64,000 nucleotides of DNA. Source: an uncultured Solobacterium sp. GTDB taxonomy: Bacteria; Bacillota_I; Bacilli_A; Erysipelotrichales; Erysipelotrichaceae. Position numbers and translations under genes: made by a program. Under the pieces are notes generated by a model. The model saw only the letters and a program-made list of their open reading frames with translations. It was not told the DNA's origin and searched no databases. The stretch is from positions 1 to 64,000 of the forward strand of contig UQPV01000004.1 in assembly GCA_900543035.1 (NCBI GenBank), read 5' to 3'. Each line of letters begins with the position of its first letter. Within the stretch, counting starts at the first letter, position 1. Of the stretch, positions 22,565 through 50,043 are shown one piece after another.

Positions 22565-22630
22565 GGCCGTGAAGCCCTGATCATCCCTTGTCATCAGACG
22601 GGGAAAGATCAGCGTTCACGGTCTTTTTTT
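22565..22630. terminator. bidirectional intrinsic terminator
   Basis: Long stem GGCCGTGAA/TTCACGGTC with an inner CTGATC/GATCAG pairing, seven T on the plus strand and five on the minus strand (plus A run 22559-22563). Serves the MATE gene and the convergent DUF815 gene, whose 3' end (22609) lies inside it. Confidence 0.85.
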
Positions 22631-23952
22631 GCTTCCTGTGCCTGTTTTATGAGCGCTTTTCCGCTGAGGTCATAGATTAGCTGCTGCGCTGCCCTTCCGC
22701 TCATGCCGCCATGGCTGAGCTCCCACTTGCGGGCCTCTGCGATCAGCTCCTCCTCGCTCAGGGTGATCTCCGGATAGCGCCTTGCCAGTTCGCACACGAT
22801 CTTCATGTAGTTTTTCTGATTCGGCCGTTCGTAGCAGATGGACAAGCCGAAGCGCGCCACCAGGCTGAGCTTTTCCTGCACGGTGTCGCTGTGATGCAGC
22901 TCATCCTCGTTCATGTCGCTGCGGTCGCTCCATGTCTCCCTGATCAGGTGGCGGCGGTTGCTGGTGGCGTAGATGAGGATGTTTTCCGGCCGGGTCTCCA
23001 CTCCGCCTTCGATGACGGCCTTCAGGAATTTATAGTCGGTCTCGAAATCTTCGAAAGAGAGGTCGTCCATATAGATGATGAACCGGTGGCTGCGCAGCTT
23101 GAGGCGCGCGATCAGCGCGGAGAGATCCTTGAACTGATGGCGGTAGATCTCGACCATGCGCAGGCCGTCTTGATAAAACTCGTTGACGATCGCCTTGATG
23201 CTGGTGGATTTGCCGGTGCCGCTGTCTCCGTAAAGCAGGACATTGTTGGCGCTGCGCCCTTCGACGAAGGCGCGCGTGTTGTCGATGAGCAGCTGTTTCT
23301 GCATCTCATAGCCGACCAGGTCGCTGAGCACGACGTTGTCCATGTTGCGGATCGGCAGAAAGGTGAGATCACCTTCTCTTTGCTCGAAGCGGAAGGCGCG
23401 GTTGAAGGCGAATATGCCGGCGCCGTATCGGGTGTAGAAGTCGGTCAGCGCGTCATACATCTCTTCCGCGCTCTCGCTGTTCTCCAGCTTGTCCACCATC
23501 TGCAGCACCATCTCGCTGACGCCGCGGTTGTACATGCGCTCGCTCTTGGCGACGGCGTGATAGTGGGTGATCAGCGAGAAGCAGTCGAGATTCAGCCGTT
23601 TTTCGAGACGGCTGAAGTCATAGTCGAACAGTTCCCGGAACACTTGCAGATCCTGCAGGACGAACAGATTGACCGTCCCTTGCGGAGCCGGCTTCTTCTC
23701 GCAGACCAAAGAGAAGGAATTCTCGTGGGTCATGAGCAGCCAGGTCAGATAACAGTGCCACAGATTGCCGTCGAATCCGCATTCGGTAGACAGATCGAGC
23801 AGCGCCTTGATCTGGGCGTGGATCCGGTCGATCAGTTCGTATTTCGGCGCGCTTCCTTCATCGAACTCGCGGATGATGCTGCACAGCTGACGGAAGATGC
23901 TGTCAGCGGGGAACCCGCGGTAGACGACGAGACGGGCGTATTCCTGATACAT
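22609..23952 (-). CDS. DUF815 AAA-type ATPase
   Basis: 447 residues. The N-terminal ~200 residues are helical and variable; the ATPase part has Walker A LLYGDSGTGKSTSIKA, Walker B RFIIYMDDLSFE, and ATSNRRHLIRETWSDR, the signature of DUF815 (COG2607) predicted ATPases. Function unknown, widespread in Firmicutes. Start ATG 23952 after AAAGGGGGCTTCATCT. No operon partners: its neighbour upstream is the divergent ilv operon. Confidence 0.87.
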   Translation of the reverse strand: MYQEYARLVVYRGFPADSIFRQLCSIIREFDEGSAPKYELIDRIHAQIKALLDLSTECGFDGNLWHCYLTWLLMTHENSFSLVCEKKPAPQGTVNLFVLQDLQVFRELFDYDFSRLEKRLNLDCFSLITHYHAVAKSERMYNRGVSEMVLQMVDKLENSESAEEMYDALTDFYTRYGAGIFAFNRAFRFEQREGDLTFLPIRNMDNVVLSDLVGYEMQKQLLIDNTRAFVEGRSANNVLLYGDSGTGKSTSIKAIVNEFYQDGLRMVEIYRHQFKDLSALIARLKLRSHRFIIYMDDLSFEDFETDYKFLKAVIEGGVETRPENILIYATSNRRHLIRETWSDRSDMNEDELHHSDTVQEKLSLVARFGLSICYERPNQKNYMKIVCELARRYPEITLSEEELIAEARKWELSHGGMSGRAAQQLIYDLSGKALIKQAQEAKKDRER

Positions 23953-24027
23953 AGATGAAGCCCCCTTTGCGTATATACCATGTATTATAGCGAAACCGAA
24001 GTCGTTTGAAAAGCGGGAAAAAGAGCG

Positions 24028-24047
24028 GTTTCATAAAATAATGAAAC
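24028..24047. repeat. inverted repeat upstream of the ilv promoter (operator candidate)
   Basis: GTTTCAT-N6-ATGAAAC, a perfect 7-base inverted repeat, 37 bases before the ilv -35 box in the divergent gap. Could bind a regulator of either the DUF815 gene or the ilv operon. Confidence 0.4.
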
Positions 24048-24084
24048 AAACAGCAAGTATTTTCAGAAAATATTATCAATTGTA

Positions 24085-24113
24085 TTGACATGCCTCATAA
24101 AAAGTTTTAAACT
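24085..24113 (+). promoter_or_regulatory. promoter of the ilv operon
   Basis: TTGACA, 17-base spacer, TAAACT. Predicted start near 24120, about 30 bases before the leader-peptide ATG. Confidence 0.75.
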
Positions 24114-24130
24114 ATGAACAACACCGGATC

Positions 24131-24316
24131 TGAAAGGAAGTGGACGCCATGATGGGCCTGGCAGTGATTATTATTATCCTTATAGTCCTAAGCAAGTCTG
24201 TTTTTCTTTCAAGAATACCGCAGAGCGGTTCTCCGGCAACAGATCTCTTTTGTCATTGCTGAGTGATGATGAGGATTGAAAGAAAAGCAGCACTATTTCA
24301 GATAGGCTGCTTTTTT
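24131..24316 (+). promoter_or_regulatory. transcription attenuator of the ilv operon
   Basis: Segment 2 (24198-24212) pairs with segment 3 (24276-24290) over 15 consecutive bases with a single G-U pair: the antiterminator. Segment 3 overlaps the 5' side of the terminator stem (24283-24291 with 24306-24314, then T tract to 24316). Segment 1 (24131-24140, containing the leader ribosome site) can pair with 24202-24211. A small hairpin ACCGC-AGA-GCGGT sits at 24217-24229. A ribosome stalled on the Ile/Leu/Val codons leaves segment 2 free to pair with 3 and allows readthrough; one that reaches the stop masks segment 2 and termination follows. Confidence 0.85.
24149..24262 (+). CDS. ilv leader peptide (37 aa)
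   Basis: Short open frame with its own ribosome site AAGGAAG eight bases upstream. Begins MMGL and then reads AVIIIILIVL: four Ile in a row plus Leu, Ile, Val, Leu, the three branched-chain residues. The codon run occupies 24164-24190. It ends with TGA at 24260-24262, 20 bases before the terminator stem. A ribosome starved for charged Ile/Val/Leu tRNA would pause on this run. Same logic as the ilvGMEDA leader of enterobacteria; the peptide itself is not expected to have a function. Confidence 0.85.
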   Translation: MMGLAVIIIILIVLSKSVFLSRIPQSGSPATDLFCHC

Positions 24317-24335
24317 GTTAAATAGGAGGGGTTAA

Positions 24336-25538
24336 ATGAACAGCAGAGATGTAGAGGCCGCGGCGAAGCGCTTGCAGGGCAATATCCATAACGTGAAGGT
24401 GACCAGCTCAAAGACGTTTTCGGCCATGAGCGGATGCGACCTGTTCCTGAAGAGCGAAAACCGGCAGAAGACCGGTTCCTTCAAGGTCAGGGGCGCCTTC
24501 AACAAGCTGGCGCGGCTGAAGGAAGCAGGCAGCACGCGTCCGGTCATCGCGAGCAGCGCGGGCAATCACGCACAGGGGGTAAGCTATGCGAGCGCACAGC
24601 TGGGCATGCAGGCGACGATCGTGATGCCCAAGAGCACGCCGATCGCCAAGGTGATGGCCACCAGAGGATATGGCGCTGAGGTCGTCTTGGCCGGCGACAA
24701 CTATGACGAATGCTATGAAGAGGCGCTGCGCATCCAGCAGGAGCGCGACGCGGTGTTCATTCATCCCTTTGACGATGAGGACGTGATCGCCGGGCAGGGG
24801 ACCATTGCCTATGAGATCTGCCGCGATCTGCCCAACGTGGACATGATCGTCGTTCCGGCAGGGGGAGGAGGCCTGCTGGCCGGCATCAGCTTCTACGCGA
24901 AGCAGATCAATCCCCGCATCAAGATCGTCGGCGTGCAGGCTGAGGGCGCGGACGCCATCGTGCGTTCCTTCCGCAGCGGGAAGCATTGTTCGACGGACAC
25001 CGTGAATACGATCGCGGACGGCATCGCGGTCATGAACCCGGGAGAGAAGACGGTAGCGCTCATCCAGGAGAACGTGGATGAGATGGTGACGGTCAGCGAT
25101 GATGAGATCGCTTCTACGATCCTGCTGCTGCTGGAGCGGGAAAAGCAGGTGGTGGAACCGGCCGGCGCATGTTCGCTGGCGGCGGTGCTCAATCACAAGA
25201 TCGATGTCGCGGACAAACGAGTCGTCTGTGTCCTTTCCGGAGGAAACATCGATGTGTCCTTCATTCACAAGGTCGTGGAAAAGGGCCTGGTGACCAGAGG
25301 ACGGAACATGAAATTTAAGACGCCGATGCTCGATGTGCCGGGATCGCTGGAAAAGATCGCGGGCATCCTGCATGAGGTCAATGCCAATATCATCGAAGTG
25401 CGGTATGACCGCATTTCAGCGGATCTGAACCTGAATGAGACCATCATCCATATGGGGGTCGAGGTCAGCAGCAAGGAGCATGGCGAGGCGATGATCCGTG
25501 AACTGAGGGCGAACGGCTATGATGTGACATTGGAGTAA
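24336..25538 (+). CDS. ilvA: threonine ammonia-lyase (threonine dehydratase)
   Basis: 400 residues, PLP fold II. Deaminates threonine to 2-oxobutanoate, the committed step to isoleucine. The PLP Lys is in KTGSFKVRGAF (K50); the glycine-rich phosphate loop PAGGGGLLAG starts near residue 174. A C-terminal ACT-like domain of about 75 residues (TPMLDVPGSLEKIAGILHEV) suggests allosteric control. By length it resembles the short Firmicutes/TdcB form, but its place at the head of ilvBNCD and under the Ile/Val attenuator argues for a biosynthetic role. RBS AGGAGGGG. Confidence 0.92.
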   Translation: MNSRDVEAAAKRLQGNIHNVKVTSSKTFSAMSGCDLFLKSENRQKTGSFKVRGAFNKLARLKEAGSTRPVIASSAGNHAQGVSYASAQLGMQATIVMPKSTPIAKVMATRGYGAEVVLAGDNYDECYEEALRIQQERDAVFIHPFDDEDVIAGQGTIAYEICRDLPNVDMIVVPAGGGGLLAGISFYAKQINPRIKIVGVQAEGADAIVRSFRSGKHCSTDTVNTIADGIAVMNPGEKTVALIQENVDEMVTVSDDEIASTILLLLEREKQVVEPAGACSLAAVLNHKIDVADKRVVCVLSGGNIDVSFIHKVVEKGLVTRGRNMKFKTPMLDVPGSLEKIAGILHEVNANIIEVRYDRISADLNLNETIIHMGVEVSSKEHGEAMIRELRANGYDVTLE

Positions 25539-25553
25539 AGGAGGAAGACACGG

Positions 25554-27221
25554 ATGAAGATGAATGGTTCACAGATACTGATACAGTCTCTGATCGACCA
25601 GGGAGTGGATACGATATTCGGTTATCCCGGCGGATCAGTGCTGAACATTTACGATGCATTATATGAGAAGAGCGACGAGATCCGCCATGTGCTGACTTCC
25701 CATGAGCAGGGGGCGGCGCATGCCGCGGACGGCTATGCGCGCAGCACCGGGAAGACCGGGGTCTGCCTGGCCACCAGCGGCCCGGGAGCGACCAACCTGG
25801 TCACCGGCATCGCGACCGCGTACATGGACAGCGTTCCTGTGGTCGCCATCACCGGCAATGTCTCCAATGATCTGCTGGGCAGAGATTCGTTCCAGGAGGT
25901 GAACATCGCGGGCATCACGATGCCGATCACCAAGCATAATTTCATCGTGCAGCGGGTGGAGGATCTGGCCGCCACGGTGCGCAAGGCGTTCGTGATCGCC
26001 AATTCAGGGCGCAAGGGGCCGGTGCTCATCGACATTCCCAAGGATGTGACCGCAGCGGTCACGGAATATATCCCATTGCCCAAGTACCGCATCCGCAAGC
26101 TGCCCAAGGTGGATGAGGCCAAGTTCGAGGAGGCGATGAACGCCATCAAGGAAGCTAAGCGTCCATTGATCTATTCCGGCGGCGGCATCATCAGCGCCGG
26201 AGCGACCAAGGAGCTGCTCAGCTTCTCCAAGCATATGGATATTCCGATCACCACGAGCATGATGGGCCTGTCTTCCGTGCCGTATGATTATGATCTGTAT
26301 CTGGGCATGATCGGCATGCATGGCACGCCGGTGGCCAACTATGCGACGCTCAACACGGATCTGATCATCGCGATCGGCGCGCGTTTCTCTGATCGTGTGG
26401 CAGGCAATCGTGAGGAATTTGGCAAGAATGCCAAGATCATCCATTTTGACATCGACGCGTCGGAGATCTCCAAGAACGTGCATTCGGATATGGCCATCGT
26501 GGGAGATGCCAAATACATCCTGAAGCACATGATCGAGCGGATGCCGGAGACACGCCATAAGGAGTGGACCGACACGCTGAAGGATTTTAAGACGAAGCTT
26601 GGTCTGCCTAAGCCGAAGGAGGGGGACGCGGTCGATCCGCGCGATCTGGCCTTGACGCTGCATCAGATCGTCGGCGAGGATGCGATCATCGTCACCGATG
26701 TCGGCCAGCATCAGATGATCATGGCACAGTATTATCAATTCACCCGCCCGCGCAGCTTCGTGAGCTCCTGCGGCTTAGGCACGATGGGATTCGGCATGGG
26801 CGCCGCCATCGGTGCCAAGATCGCCAACCCGAAGCGACCGGTCGTGCTCGTCACGGGGGATGGCAGCTTCCACATGAACATGAACGAGCTGGCCACCGCG
26901 GTCAGCGAGAAGCTGCCGATCGTCGTGCTCATCTTCAACAATCATGTGCTGGGCATGGTGCGCCAGTGGCAGACGCTGTTTTATGAGCACCGTTACTCTA
27001 ATACGACGATCGACCGCGCCACCGACTATGTGAAGCTGGCGGAGGCGTTTGGCGGAAAGGGCCTGCGCATCAAGAACCGCTATGATATCGAACCGGTCAT
27101 GAAGGAGGCCATGCACAGCGATACCGTCTGTGTCGTCGACTGCTGGATTGACAAGGATGACTGTGTCTATCCGATCATCCCGCCGGGAAAAGGTGCGAAG
27201 GACATCATCATCGGAAACTAA
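25554..27221 (+). CDS. ilvB: acetolactate synthase large (catalytic) subunit
   Basis: 555 residues, TPP enzyme. Condenses pyruvate with pyruvate or 2-oxobutanoate. GVDTIFGYPGGSVLNIYDAL with the catalytic Glu in the following helix (HEQGAAHAADGYAR), FAD-type middle domain, and TPP-binding GDGSFHMNMNELATAV through IFNNHVLGMVRQWQ. Start ATG 25554 after AAAGGAGGAAGACACGG, 15 bases after ilvA. Pairs with the downstream regulatory subunit. Confidence 0.95.
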   Translation: MKMNGSQILIQSLIDQGVDTIFGYPGGSVLNIYDALYEKSDEIRHVLTSHEQGAAHAADGYARSTGKTGVCLATSGPGATNLVTGIATAYMDSVPVVAITGNVSNDLLGRDSFQEVNIAGITMPITKHNFIVQRVEDLAATVRKAFVIANSGRKGPVLIDIPKDVTAAVTEYIPLPKYRIRKLPKVDEAKFEEAMNAIKEAKRPLIYSGGGIISAGATKELLSFSKHMDIPITTSMMGLSSVPYDYDLYLGMIGMHGTPVANYATLNTDLIIAIGARFSDRVAGNREEFGKNAKIIHFDIDASEISKNVHSDMAIVGDAKYILKHMIERMPETRHKEWTDTLKDFKTKLGLPKPKEGDAVDPRDLALTLHQIVGEDAIIVTDVGQHQMIMAQYYQFTRPRSFVSSCGLGTMGFGMGAAIGAKIANPKRPVVLVTGDGSFHMNMNELATAVSEKLPIVVLIFNNHVLGMVRQWQTLFYEHRYSNTTIDRATDYVKLAEAFGGKGLRIKNRYDIEPVMKEAMHSDTVCVVDCWIDKDDCVYPIIPPGKGAKDIIIGN

Positions 27222-27232
27222 GGGGGAAGCAT

Positions 27233-27724
27233 ATGGAACGAAATGTATTATCGCTGCTGGTCGCCAACCATTTCGGCGTGTTGACCAGAGTGACCAATTT
27301 GTTTGGCCAGCGTGGGTTCAATATCGATTCGCTGGCGGTGGGAGAGACGGAAAATCCGCGCTTCTCCCGCATCACGATCACCACGCATGGCGATGAGCGC
27401 GTGATCAATCAGATCAAGCTGCAGCTGGCCAAGCTGGAGGATGTGAAGGCCGTGGTGGAGATCCCGGAAGAGCAGCTGTTCATCCGGGAGGTCGTATTGA
27501 TCAAGGCAGAGCCGAAGAAGGCGCAGATGGAAGCGTTCGAGCAGGCCGTGTCTGATTTCGGCGGACGGCTGCAGATCGTGGAAGGCGATGTGTATGTGAT
27601 CGAGCTCACCGATACGCCGGACAGCATCAACTACTTCATCGAAGAGCTTCAGGACTTCCATATCCGGGAGATCAGCCGCACCGGCGGCGTGGCGCTGGAG
27701 CTGTCGAGGGAGACCGTATACTGA
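27233..27724 (+). CDS. ilvN: acetolactate synthase small (regulatory) subunit
   Basis: 163 residues. N-terminal ACT domain (LSLLVANHFGVLTRVTNLFG, RGFNIDSLAVGETE) that binds valine for feedback inhibition, and a C-terminal domain (KAEPKKAQMEAFEQAVSDFGG, ISRTGGVALEL). Also called ilvH in many genomes. Eleven bases after ilvB, RBS AAGGGGGAAGC. Confidence 0.94.
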   Translation: MERNVLSLLVANHFGVLTRVTNLFGQRGFNIDSLAVGETENPRFSRITITTHGDERVINQIKLQLAKLEDVKAVVEIPEEQLFIREVVLIKAEPKKAQMEAFEQAVSDFGGRLQIVEGDVYVIELTDTPDSINYFIEELQDFHIREISRTGGVALELSRETVY

Positions 27725-27751
27725 TATTACCGCACCCATGTGCGTTAATAT
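27724..27751 (+). other. intercistronic hairpin between ilvN and ilvC
   Basis: ATATTACCGCAC-CCAT-GTGCGTTAATAT: 12-bp stem with one mismatch and no T tract. Probably an mRNA-processing or stability element giving ilvC its own stoichiometry, rather than a terminator. Confidence 0.5.
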
Positions 27752-27770
27752 AGATGAGGAAAACAGTTAG

Positions 27771-28784
<1,014 letters not shown>

Positions 28785-28808
28785 ACGATTGGAAATCAGG
28801 TGAATACA

Positions 28809-30473
28809 ATGAGCAGACCAAGTGACAGAGTATTAAAAGGAGATGCCTGCGCACCGCAGCGTTCGCTGTTCTATGCGCTGGGCCTGACCCAGGAGGAGCT
28901 GGAGCGTCCGCTGATCGCCGTGGTCAGCGCCCACAGCGAGATCGTGCCGGGACATCTGCATCTGGATAAGATCACGGATGCGGTGAAGGCCGGCATCCGC
29001 ATGGCGGGCGGGACACCGATCATGGTGCCGGCCATCGGTGTATGCGATGGTATCGCGATGGGCCATATCGGCATGAAGTATTCGCTCGCCTCCCGCGAGC
29101 TGATCGCGGACAGCGTGGAAACGATGCTCAACGCCCATGGCTTTGACGGCGCGGTGCTCGTGCCCAACTGCGATAAGATCGTGCCAGGCATGCTGATGGG
29201 GGCGCTGCGCGTCAACATCCCGGCCGTCGTCATGAGCGGCGGCGCGATGCTGCCAGGTAATGACCGCGGCAAGGACATGAGCCTTTCGACGATGTTTGAG
29301 GCCGTCGGCGCCAAGAAAGCCGGGCTGATCGATCAGGATGAGCTCACCTATATCGAGCAGAACGCCTGCCCGGGCTGCGGTTCCTGCTCCGGCATGTTCA
29401 CGGCCAACTCCATGAACTGCCTGTGCGAAGTGCTGGGCATCGCCCTTCCGGGAAACGGCACCATTCCGGCCGTGTACTCCGGCCGCATGCAGCTGGCCAA
29501 GAAAGCCGGCATGGCCGTGATGGACATGGTGGAGAAGGGCATCCGGCCGCGCGACATCGTCAACGAACAGGCGCTGCGCAACGGTCTGGCCTGTGATATG
29601 GCGCTTGGCTGCTCATCCAATACCGTGCTGCATCTGCTTGCCATCGCAAAGGAAGCGCAGGTCGAGCTCGACCTCAACGTCATCAATGAGATCTCGCAGT
29701 CCACACCAAATCTGTGCAAGCTGGCCCCTGCCGGACCGGATCATATCGTCGATCTGTATCGCGCCGGCGGTGTCCAGGCAGTGATGAAGGAGCTGCAGAA
29801 GAAAGGCCTCATCGATGATACGCTGATGACCGTCACCGGCAAGACGATCCGGGAAAACCTGGAACAGGCAAAGAATCTCGATCATCACATCATCAAAGAT
29901 ATCGAGAGCCCGAATTCGCCGACCGGCGGCATCGCCGTCCTCTTTGGAAACATCGCACCGAAGGGCTGCGTCGTCAAACGCAGCGCCGTGGATCCCGCCA
30001 TGCTCAAGCATACCGGCCCGGCGCGTGTCTTTGACAGCGAGGAAGAAGCCATCGAGGCGATCTATGATGGTAAGATCGTCAAAGGGGATGTGGTGGTCAT
30101 CCGCTACGAAGGGCCGAAGGGCGGTCCAGGCATGCGGGAGATGCTCAACCCGACCAGCGCGCTGGCCGGCATGAAGCTGGACAAGGATGTCGCGCTGATC
30201 ACCGACGGCCGGTTCTCCGGCGCAACCAGAGGCGCGGCCATCGGCCATGTCTCTCCGGAGGCGGCATCATGCGGACCGATCGCCGTCATCCGCGAAGGCG
30301 AGCTGATCGACATCGACATCAACGCAGGAACGATCGATCTGCGGATCAGCGAGGAAGAGATGCAGAAGCGCCTTGGCGAATGGAAGCCATTGGAGCCGAA
30401 GGTCAAGGGCGGCTGGCTGGAACGCTATGCCCGTCTGGTTTCCTCTGCCGATGAAGGCGCAGTGCTGAAATGA
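28809..30473 (+). CDS. ilvD: dihydroxy-acid dehydratase
   Basis: 554 residues, the family norm. Iron-sulfur enzyme converting dihydroxy acids to the 2-oxo acid precursors of valine and isoleucine. Cluster Cys in [11 protein letters not shown] and [34 protein letters not shown] at the N-terminus. ATG 28809 is preferred to GTG 28800, which lies within its ribosome site AGGTGA. Last gene of the operon; no leu genes or aminotransferase follow, so leucine genes must be elsewhere. Confidence 0.95.
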
Positions 30474-32979: not shown

Positions 32980-34157
32980 CACGCAAATCAATTTTCCAAA
33001 AAGCCAAAAAGATGATACAGTAAATGCATGAAGAAAAATGGAATTACAGAGTACTTTGAAGAAGTAGAAACAGAAGAAGAATACAACGGATATTTTTGCC
33101 GTATCCCCGATGTCATCACGATCGTCATCTTAGGCAGCATGTGCGGTTTGCGAAATATAAGCCAGATTCATCAGTGGGCCGCAAGCGACAGAGTAAGCAG
33201 CTTTTTGAAGGAGCGTTTTGGAATTGAACATGTACCCTGCTATTACTGGATCCTCTGCATGCTGAAGATGATCAAAACGGAAACGCTCAATGAGTGCTTC
33301 ATGAATTGGGTCGTTTCATTTCTGCCTGAAAAAGTAAGAGATCTGACCATCTCGCTTGATGGAAAGACCATTTGTTCGACAAATCGGATATCGAAAATGG
33401 ACAGCCCCCTGCATATCATCAGTGCGCAGATTTCTGAACTCGGCCTCACGTTGGCGCAGCGGAGCACGGATGAGAAAAGCAATGAGATCCCGGCAGTACA
33501 GGAGTTATTGAATGCATTGCATATCGAAGGCCAGATGATCACAGCAGATGCGATGAATTGTCAGAAGGAAACAGCCAAGATCATCGTAGAACAGAAAGCC
33601 GATTATCTGTTATGCGCAAAAGATAACCAACCAGCATTGAAAAAGGATATCGAAGCATACGTACAAGATAAAGAACTGCGTGAGAAGATGGATGCGCTGG
33701 TGAAGACAGAAAAGAATTACGGACGAATAGAGACGAGAAGCGCGTATGTGACATCAGATATCGAATGGTTGGAACAAGGAAAAAACTGGAAGAATCTGAA
33801 GAGCATAGGAGCGATCCATACAGAATTTAAAAGCGCGAAAGGGCAGAGCAGCGAGTGGCATTACTATATAAGCAGTCGGGACTTAAGTGCGAAAGAACTG
33901 TTGCATCATGCGCGCATGGAATGGTCGGTAGAAACGATGCACTGGCTGTTGGACGTACATTTTGAAGAAGATTGGTGCCGGATAGAAGATAAGAAGGTGC
34001 AGCAGCACCTGAATATGTTCAGGAAAGCAGCGATCAATCTGATCAAACAGTATAAGACAAGGAGCAAATCAAAGAAGCCGATCTCTCATATCATGCTAGA
34101 ATGTTTGATCGATGATTCGGTTATTTTAAAGGTCATTTCTGAAAATTGATTTGCGTG
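32980..34157 (+). mobile_element. complete ISAs1-type insertion sequence, 1178 bp
   Basis: Bounded by perfect 17-base inverted repeats: CACGCAAATCAATTTTC at 32980-32996 and its complement at 34141-34157, flanked by a 9-base target duplication. One transposase gene fills it; its stop codon lies inside the right repeat. GC is clearly lower than in neighbouring chromosomal genes. Intact ends and open frame suggest recent insertion and possible activity. Confidence 0.93.
33028..34149 (+). CDS. ISAs1-family transposase
   Basis: 373 residues, DDE transposase. First Asp in TISLDGKTI, second in MITADAMNCQKETA, and the Glu region VETMHWLLDVHFEEDWCR, a modified form of the family's HWxIENxLHWxLDVxFxED motif. 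Full length for the family with no frameshift. No clear ribosome site. AT-rich codon use unlike its neighbours. Confidence 0.92.
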   Translation: MKKNGITEYFEEVETEEEYNGYFCRIPDVITIVILGSMCGLRNISQIHQWAASDRVSSFLKERFGIEHVPCYYWILCMLKMIKTETLNECFMNWVVSFLPEKVRDLTISLDGKTICSTNRISKMDSPLHIISAQISELGLTLAQRSTDEKSNEIPAVQELLNALHIEGQMITADAMNCQKETAKIIVEQKADYLLCAKDNQPALKKDIEAYVQDKELREKMDALVKTEKNYGRIETRSAYVTSDIEWLEQGKNWKNLKSIGAIHTEFKSAKGQSSEWHYYISSRDLSAKELLHHARMEWSVETMHWLLDVHFEEDWCRIEDKKVQQHLNMFRKAAINLIKQYKTRSKSKKPISHIMLECLIDDSVILKVISEN

Positions 34158-49886: not shown

Positions 49887-49960
49887 GCCGGTATAGTATA
49901 GTGGTAATACAAAGCAATGGTAATGCTTAGCGCTCAGTTCAATTCTGGGTACCGGCACCA
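49887..49960 (+). tRNA. tRNA-Thr (anticodon GGT)
   Basis: Folds as a cloverleaf: acceptor GCCGGTA/TACCGGC, D arm GTAT-AGTGGTA-ATAC with a short loop, anticodon stem AAGCA/TGCTT with loop ATGGTAA, T arm CTCAG-TTCAATT-CTGGG, discriminator A and encoded CCA. Reads ACC and ACU. Confidence 0.9.
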
Positions 49961-49967
49961 TTTCTCT

Positions 49968-50043
49968 GCCGACTTAGCACAGCTGGTAGTGCAACGCACT
50001 CGTAACGCGTAGGTCGGGGGTTCGAGTCCCTTAGTCGGCACCA
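49968..50043 (+). tRNA. tRNA-Thr (anticodon CGT)
   Basis: Acceptor GCCGACT/AGTCGGC, D arm GCAC-AGCTGGTA-GTGC, anticodon loop CTCGTAA on stem ACGCA/CGCGT (last pair A-C mismatched), T arm GGGGG-TTCGAGT-CCCTT with two G-U pairs, CCA encoded. Reads ACG. Confidence 0.92.

Follow-up and report, generated by a model that had tools for sequence, protein, structure and literature searches.

A probable ribosome-mediated attenuator in front of the ilvA-B-N-C-D operon of an Erysipelotrichales lineage

What switches the branched-chain amino acid (BCAA) genes of this bacterium on and off? In the 64,000 nucleotides analysed here (the window), five genes of BCAA biosynthesis, ilvA-ilvB-ilvN-ilvC-ilvD, are arranged head to tail (24336–30473; Table 1). 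Judged by its sequence, the window reads as DNA of a gut bacterium related to Merdibacter, within the Erysipelotrichales; its IlvA shares 85% identity with the protein of Merdibacter massiliensis and 87% with that of genome G045. A sequence-only reading had proposed a leader-peptide attenuator of the classical type before ilvA, preceded by a promoter. The promoter is found, with hexamers TTGACA (24085–24090) and TAAACT (24108–24113) separated by 17 nt and matching the consensus at 10 of 12 positions; promoter-like sites number 4 in 601 bases, against 0.9 expected. Relatives also display a TTGAC-type −35 and a −10-like hexamer, with the exception of L084, where the contig ends too early. From promoter to ilvA the leader measures about 215 nt, and it folds better than shuffled sequences (z −2.75, 0 of 200 shuffles as good), as does its 3' half (z −2.92, 2 of 200). 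Divergent from the ilv promoter is a gene for a DUF815 AAA-type ATPase (22609–23952, − strand), and an ISAs1-family transposase gene (33028–34149) is located downstream of the operon.

Table 1. Positions of leader elements and ilv genes in the window
Feature	Position	Strand	Basis
Sigma-70-type promoter TTGACA-17-TAAACT	24085..24113	+	sequence scan and relatives
Segment 1, leader ribosome site and spacer (GAAAGGAAGTGGAC)	24132..24145	+	pairs with segment 2
Leader peptide frame, 37 codons	24149..24262	+	sequence, ORF list
Control codons, nine consecutive Val/Ile/Leu (VIIIILIVL)	24164..24190	+	sequence; relatives
Segment 2, inside leader frame, codes SVFLS	24196..24212	+	pairs with segment 1 or 3
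Segment 3, antiterminator 3' side, overlaps terminator 5' side	24276..24290	+	pairing, comparison
Intrinsic terminator hairpin and U-run (segments 3, 4)	24281..24316	+	folding
ilvA ribosome binding site	24324..24331	+	sequence
ilvA, threonine ammonia-lyase	24336..25538	+	TIGR01127
ilvB, acetolactate synthase large subunit	25554..27221	+	TIGR00118
ilvN, acetolactate synthase small subunit	27233..27724	+	TIGR00119
ilvC, ketol-acid reductoisomerase	27789..28784	+	TIGR00465
ilvD, dihydroxy-acid dehydratase	28800..30473	+	TIGR00110

The leader contains a small frame that begins with an ATG at 24149 and ends with a TGA at 24260–24262 (the ORF list gives it as 24140–24262, counting from an in-frame GTG). 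As the sequence-only reading had it, this frame has 37 codons, a ribosome site of its own and a run of Ile, Val and Leu codons; an open frame with such a site and run is conserved in 11 relatives. The run VIIIILIVL is the longest unbroken series of I, L and V among 905 small frames (10–60 aa) in the window, the runner-up having 7. All 12 leader peptides carry 7–10 consecutive BCAA codons (eight in L091, followed by Met and Leu). The order of the residues is specific to each of two clades (VIIIILIVL vs VILLVVIIIL) while the class of codon is unchanged, as would be expected if the codons, and not the peptide, were under selection. Behind the run, every one of the 12 peptides continues with S-[V/A]-F-L-S, which is segment 2 read as codons, and in none of the 12 leaders do its codons TCT, TTT and CTT vary, even at third positions, as expected if RNA pairing is under selection.

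An intrinsic terminator, previously placed at 24283–24316, is found as a hairpin of −16.9 kcal/mol spanning 24281–24316; it sits between the leader frame and ilvA, as a classical attenuator requires. A simple terminator scan of the region did not list this hairpin, probably because its stem is bulged. The 5' side of the hairpin is shared with the antiterminator, for which the proposed 15 bp with one G-U proved exact: 24198–24212 and 24276–24290 form 15 consecutive pairs, and 24281–24290 is common to both structures. The duplex has an energy of −19.0 kcal/mol, which none of 1000 dinucleotide shuffles of the upstream RNA reaches (best −18.3). When all 12 leaders are compared (alignment A1), 85.0% of antiterminator cells are paired vs 44–61% when the pairing is slid by 1–3 columns, and none of 500 shuffles is as high in either cells paired or covariation score. 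In energy, the antiterminator outdoes all 500 shuffles in eight leaders, and 487 or more of the 500 in the remaining four. The covariation looked for in this helix is present as a single well-kept pair, U-A in six leaders and G-C in six, split between the two clades, which makes it essentially one two-sided change. Three pairs are altered on both sides, without clear excess (30 of 500 shuffles reach 3), and two of the three fall in the poorly kept outer part. The second clade has a shifted or bulged base in segment 3, so that the lower half of this segment is probably misaligned in A1.

Segment 2 has a further possible partner. The leader ribosome site (24131–24140) had been described as engaged in a third pairing, with “the same segment”; the pairing itself is confirmed and is longer than first stated (24132–24145 with 24196–24210), and the partner identified here is segment 2. 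In detail, 24132–24144 pairs with 24197–24210, to which C24145-G24196 is added. In the register tried first, 88.9% of cells were paired and covariation did not exceed that of shuffles, with a hint of it one column away. In the register finally counted (13 pairs, spacer included), 98.7% of cells are paired over the 12 leaders vs 42–62% when slid, and 0 of 500 shuffles are as high in cells paired or covariation score, figures favoured by the choice of this register after inspection of the sequences. One pair in it is changed on both sides, a number that 500 of 500 shuffles reach. The covarying pair occurs in four standard types (A-U 5, U-G 5, C-G 1, G-U 1), and its base in segment 2 is the very one for which covariation with segment 3 is seen. 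A switch predicts just this, a base matched in two helices that exclude each other, even if in the antiterminator and in the 1:2 helix alike the covariation is essentially one change between two clades. The lowest-energy 1:2 duplexes range from −13.4 to −14.5 kcal/mol (L085 only −9.6), and in the window's clade they use a neighbouring register for the half that contains the ribosome site. As a control, the pairing of the leader site with segment 2 (−14.7 kcal/mol) was compared with the upstream regions of 44 long frames in the window, the best of which gives −13.6. From these pairings we prefer an arrangement in which segment 2 would be claimed either by segment 1 (off) or by segment 3 (on), the two being mutually exclusive.

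Whether such a switch operates at equilibrium was examined by folding, in a model where the ribosome is nothing more than an unpairable stretch. For whole leaders without a ribosome, the terminator reaches at least 0.98 in 10 of 12; in L003 (7819–7983) and L090 (1316–1480) the antiterminator reaches 0.93–0.94 even in this state. The 1:2 helix is at least 0.78 in eight leaders and at most 0.08 in L081, L085, L003 and L090. A stalled ribosome rarely alters the equilibrium outcome, and the terminator is still favoured in most stalled states. Taken alone, the masked-leader folding proposed earlier does not reproduce the switch at equilibrium. If the RNA is cut before segment 4, again with no ribosome, the antiterminator is at least 0.75 in 9 of 12 (low in L085, L002 and L088) and beats the 1:2 helix in nine of the twelve (0.99 vs 0.00 in the window). 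A 1:2 pairing that protects segment 2 from the antiterminator is thus present in the register selected after inspection, but loses at this stage in 9 of 12 leaders, so that segment 1 would have to recapture segment 2 kinetically, ahead of the emergence of segment 3.

In this truncated state, a stall in the window at any control codon except the last Leu gives an antiterminator of at least 0.99. Relatives are mixed (0.00–0.98 in L002, 0.00–0.94 in L088, partly low in L082 and L085); in L088, and to a smaller degree in L002, most stall positions give a weak antiterminator. A ribosome on the final BCAA codon, at a distance of 10 nt from segment 2, abolishes the antiterminator in 11 of 12 leaders; in L084, where this distance is 13 nt, it does not. 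With a ribosome at the stop codon, 10 of 12 leaders can still form the antiterminator before segment 4. L082 (10 nt), the only clear instance of coverage, loses it, and in L085 it is low whether or not a ribosome occupies the stop. The idea that a ribosome finishing at the stop would mask segment 2 therefore fails: the stop is 47 nt from 24212 in the window (49 nt from the end of CTTTC at 24210), and masking is generally not seen in relatives, where the distance from CTTTC to the stop is 10–22 nt (16 nt in L091). Stop masking of the trp type is rejected for the window, although such a geometry is not required of every attenuator.

A rough timing model uses rates from PMC1183508, which are those of E. 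coli work; it ignores polymerase pausing and assumes an initiation delay of 0.3 or 1 s and a starved rate of 1 codon/s. At the moment of decision, the starved ribosome is upstream of segment 2 in 91–100% of runs, and the unstarved ribosome is mostly on or past it. With the stop too far away and the ribosome past segment 2, something must hold this segment, a role for which the 1:2 helix readily suggests itself.

The most consistent interpretation is that the element is very probably a ribosome-mediated transcription attenuator of the ilvA-B-N-C-D operon, responding to branched-chain amino acids. This agrees with the sequence-only reading: the parts stand in the right order before BCAA genes and are conserved, and neither loss of the frame from relatives nor a T-box in the leader came to light. 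The assignment draws on sequence and comparison, that is, on the parts and their order, conservation, mutual exclusion of helices and covariation. The response to amino acids, ribosome stalling, recapture and the co-transcriptional choice would then proceed as follows. Transcription would start near 24120, to judge from the −10 hexamer, and a ribosome would initiate on the leader frame. If charged tRNA for Ile, Val or Leu were scarce, this ribosome would stall within 24164–24187, upstream of segment 2, and segment 2 (24196–24212) could pair with segment 3 (24276–24290) as the latter leaves RNA polymerase. This 2:3 pairing would block the terminator at 24281–24316, and the operon would be transcribed. 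If amino acids were plentiful, the ribosome would sweep through segment 2 and beyond, segment 2 would be recaptured from behind by the ribosome site and spacer (24132–24145) before segment 3 is out, and the terminator could form and stop transcription. The same 1:2 helix would hold the operon off if no ribosome were loaded. For the terminated state we favour this return of segment 2 to the leader ribosome site, and the choice between helices would be kinetic, as the folding suggests.

A wider proposal, which we put forward tentatively and at slightly less than an even chance, is that of a self-closing attenuator. Segment 1 would be the leader's own ribosome site and segment 2 the end of its frame, so that ribosome loading keeps the leader open, while passage of the ribosome closes both the leader (to a second ribosome) and the operon (by the terminator). 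Each transcript would sample the tRNA pool once, and the device would have arisen as BCAA control in one T-box-rich, CodY-less lineage of the Erysipelotrichales.

The distribution of the leader is narrow. It is found before ilvA in all 11 relatives for which upstream DNA is present, and in 11 of 11 ilvC follows 3.4–3.5 kb after ilvA on the same strand, as in the window. Absence of the frame from relatives had been named as evidence that would speak against an attenuator; all 11 keep an open frame with its BCAA run. A covariance model built from the 12 leaders (alignment A1) was used to search 244 family genomes, a selection from a larger group; it recovered the leader in 11 of them (E 3.7e-29 to 1.5e-22). 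As the model was built from these same leaders, their recovery is by construction, and the added value is that no other convincing match appeared among the best first-look candidates scored (at most 10 per genome, a depth at which weak relatives could escape). The 11 genomes are 11 of the 12 with an IlvA at least 70% identical to that of the window; the remaining genome, G169, lacks the upstream DNA, its contig beginning within ilvA. Genus-wise searches in which 150 candidates were scored were positive in 3 of 3 and 6 of 7 genomes, the miss again being G169. Twelve weak covariance matches (bits <30) were read by eye, inspected for frames rich in I, L and V close to their centre, and set aside as chance, a check confined to the matches themselves. 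At L126 and L132 the I/L/V-rich stretch opens a long frame (388 and 250 aa, respectively); within the latter, a run of six also occurs in a frame of 31 residues. L127 has a frame of 11 residues that includes a run of five.

Searches by other means give a similar picture. A scan of the first 80 loci for a BCAA-rich small frame followed by a terminator, at a threshold that missed L001 and L024, returned the window leader, L002, L003 and the unrelated L027 and L075. A similar scan of 20 other ilv regions of the family gave no BCAA leader directly before an ilv gene, and none was seen upstream of ilvA in the 10 loci read out of 19 with an IlvA 55–64% identical. The next closest IlvA proteins (60–64%) belong to Clostridia, namely Butyricicoccus and others (L004–L017), which raises the question of transfer between groups. 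Eight of these 14 loci were read; they show a promoter-like stretch near ilvA and no leader.

T-box leaders (RF00230) precede ilvA in other members of the family, but not here. No T-box match occurs in the window leader, and 23900–24500 contains none even at E 10; five sub-threshold Rfam matches in the leader at E up to 10 all belong to unrelated families. Nor do T-box matches occur up to about 1.5 kb from ilvA in any of the 11 relatives (the L084 locus ends ∼240 bases 5' of ilvA). Such a match, which the sequence-only reading held to be incompatible with its proposal, is therefore found neither in the window leader nor in relatives, and T-box control of this leader is rejected. More generally, no Rfam 15 family matches the window leader or the ilvA loci of the 11 relatives at the gathering threshold. 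Two neighbouring tRNA genes (49887–50040) are the sole Rfam matches in the window at such thresholds. The lineage is nevertheless rich in T-boxes, with 10–23 matches per genome (E up to 0.001) in the 12 closest genomes. Among 20 ilv regions of other family members, five have a T-box directly before ilvA (L167, L168, L171, L172 and L174), with ilvA of a different type, 43–44% identical to that of the window. This means that tRNA sensing for the operon differs within one family. In three regions (L176, L178, L179) a T-box near ilvB lies on the opposite strand and reads away, and 12 have none above threshold, some of these being short or containing only ilvC.

Just upstream of the −35 is a palindrome, TATTTTCAGAAAATA (24058–24072), which resembles a CodY site in that it has two mismatches to what we take to be the CodY consensus. 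Matches with up to three mismatches to this assumed consensus number two in the window vs 0.72 expected, and 15 of 100 shuffles also reach two. A CodY gene was found in none of 14 genomes (11 with the leader and three other family members, completeness not given), all of them genomes of relatives, in a search with B. subtilis and L. lactis genomes as positive controls. On this ground, CodY control of the ilv operon is rejected; another regulator may bind the palindrome. Several relatives have sequences like TTTTCTGAAAA or TTTTCATGAAAA near the same place.

The principle of such attenuation has long been known, and examples exist in Listeria and Staphylococcus. For Rli60 of Listeria monocytogenes, ribosome-mediated attenuation of ilv-leu was demonstrated, and mutants in its start codon and ribosome site show lower ilvD expression under low BCAA (PMC5864092). 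The two systems have in common a Firmicute host, a BCAA operon, a BCAA-rich leader peptide and a segment shared by antiterminator and terminator. They differ in that Rli60 is described with a 13-residue peptide and alternative structures downstream of it, whereas segment 2 here is within the frame; the Listeria operon is ilvDBHC-leuABCD-ilvA and is also under CodY, for which no gene was found in the genomes of the 14 relatives here. Segment 1 here is the leader ribosome site; according to its legend, the Rli60 figure marks the ribosome site in both structures (PMC5864092), and it may be paired there too. In Staphylococcus aureus, selected mutations support an attenuator in the ilvD leader, which likewise has a peptide with Leu and Ile codons, a terminator downstream and a predicted ribosome-dependent choice. 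There the antiterminator is predicted to pair with the U-tail of the terminator and not to disturb its stem, and CodY also acts (PMC5794164, which further cites predicted BCAA attenuators of Lactococcus and Streptococcus). Closest in taxonomy are the his attenuators predicted in six species of Erysipelotrichales, the order of the present bacterium, with leader peptide, terminator and antiterminator; they serve the histidine operon with His codons, and their peptides are described as immediately upstream of the structures (PMC9413887).

The four-segment logic resembles that of enterobacterial trp and his (PMC1183508). Region I of trp lies behind the start codon and contains the control codons, whereas segment 1 here is the ribosome site upstream of the frame. 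The same account describes super-attenuation, in which I:II and III:IV form without translation, and two ways to a low basal readthrough, namely a late stop codon or an extra hairpin (PMC1183508). In Actinobacteria, leader peptides reported without a clear mechanism precede ilvB (PMC1262725). In B. subtilis tlrB, a leader peptide and a terminator are accompanied by a hairpin that sequesters the downstream gene's SD; translation of the leader would be inhibited by this hairpin as well. For B. pumilus, the prediction is of a weak hairpin that takes in the SD of the leader (PMC6851288). In the text of the open-licence literature searched, neither this ilv element nor a leader with its own ribosome site as segment 1 was found described.

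Several other readings of the leader can be weighed against an attenuator. The I/L/V run also resembles a membrane helix, and the frame is conserved with its own ribosome site, as would suit a small membrane protein, with the I/L/V run as its transmembrane helix, that is encoded by chance in an ilv leader whose terminator is constitutive. We consider this very improbable. Apart from one Met in L091 the run consists of I, L and V, where a helix would also use A, F, G and M; its order changes between clades while the codon class is kept; the later part of the frame doubles as segment 2, with one base covarying with segments 1 and 3; and the leader peptide has no Pfam match. Also having a very small chance, comparable to that of the membrane protein, is a leader that senses a protein or small molecule, through an undescribed riboswitch or RNA-binding regulator, with translation of the frame incidental. 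Terminator and antiterminator each form without a ribosome in static folding, which would accord with it; against it, no Rfam family matches the leader at threshold and the sub-threshold matches are unrelated, and beyond the run, the ribosome site, the pairing segments and the terminator just one further conserved block was seen. Least likely of all is arrest by the nascent peptide, in which the tail S-V/A-F-L-S would stall the ribosome on a ligand, in place of stalling by uncharged tRNA at the run. The tail residues are indeed kept in 12 of 12 peptides, but so are TCT, TTT and CTT down to their third positions, exactly within segment 2, so that RNA pairing suffices to explain their conservation.

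A ribosome-mediated attenuator is thus the preferred reading. The element is real and conserved in its lineage, very probably an attenuator of a known kind, whose family is undescribed in the open-licence literature searched; as far as that literature was searched, the family, the lineage and the ribosome site as segment 1 are new with respect to the systems of Listeria and Staphylococcus, and the wiring is probably a variant. What the sequences support is a set of three mutually exclusive helices with one shared covarying base. A ribosome site acting as segment 1 would be a compact design, an alternative to covering segment 2 with a ribosome at the stop codon. A T-box-rich lineage would here use ribosome-mediated attenuation for its BCAA operon, where other members of the family have a T-box before ilvA, and the replacement of one tRNA-sensing device by another becomes directly comparable within a family. 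As no Rfam 15 family matches at threshold, a new one could be added from alignment A1.

Two minor features of the leader deserve mention. The window differs from its Merdibacter relatives at the position of their TAA, a few bases being inserted upstream (24210–24262), and to judge from the sequence its longer frame, compared with the 11 relatives, could be drift. Between segments 2 and 3, a block consisting of CAGAT and then TTT (24240–24250) is invariant in 12 of 12 leaders; its partner could be a local sequence or the 5' part of segment 2.
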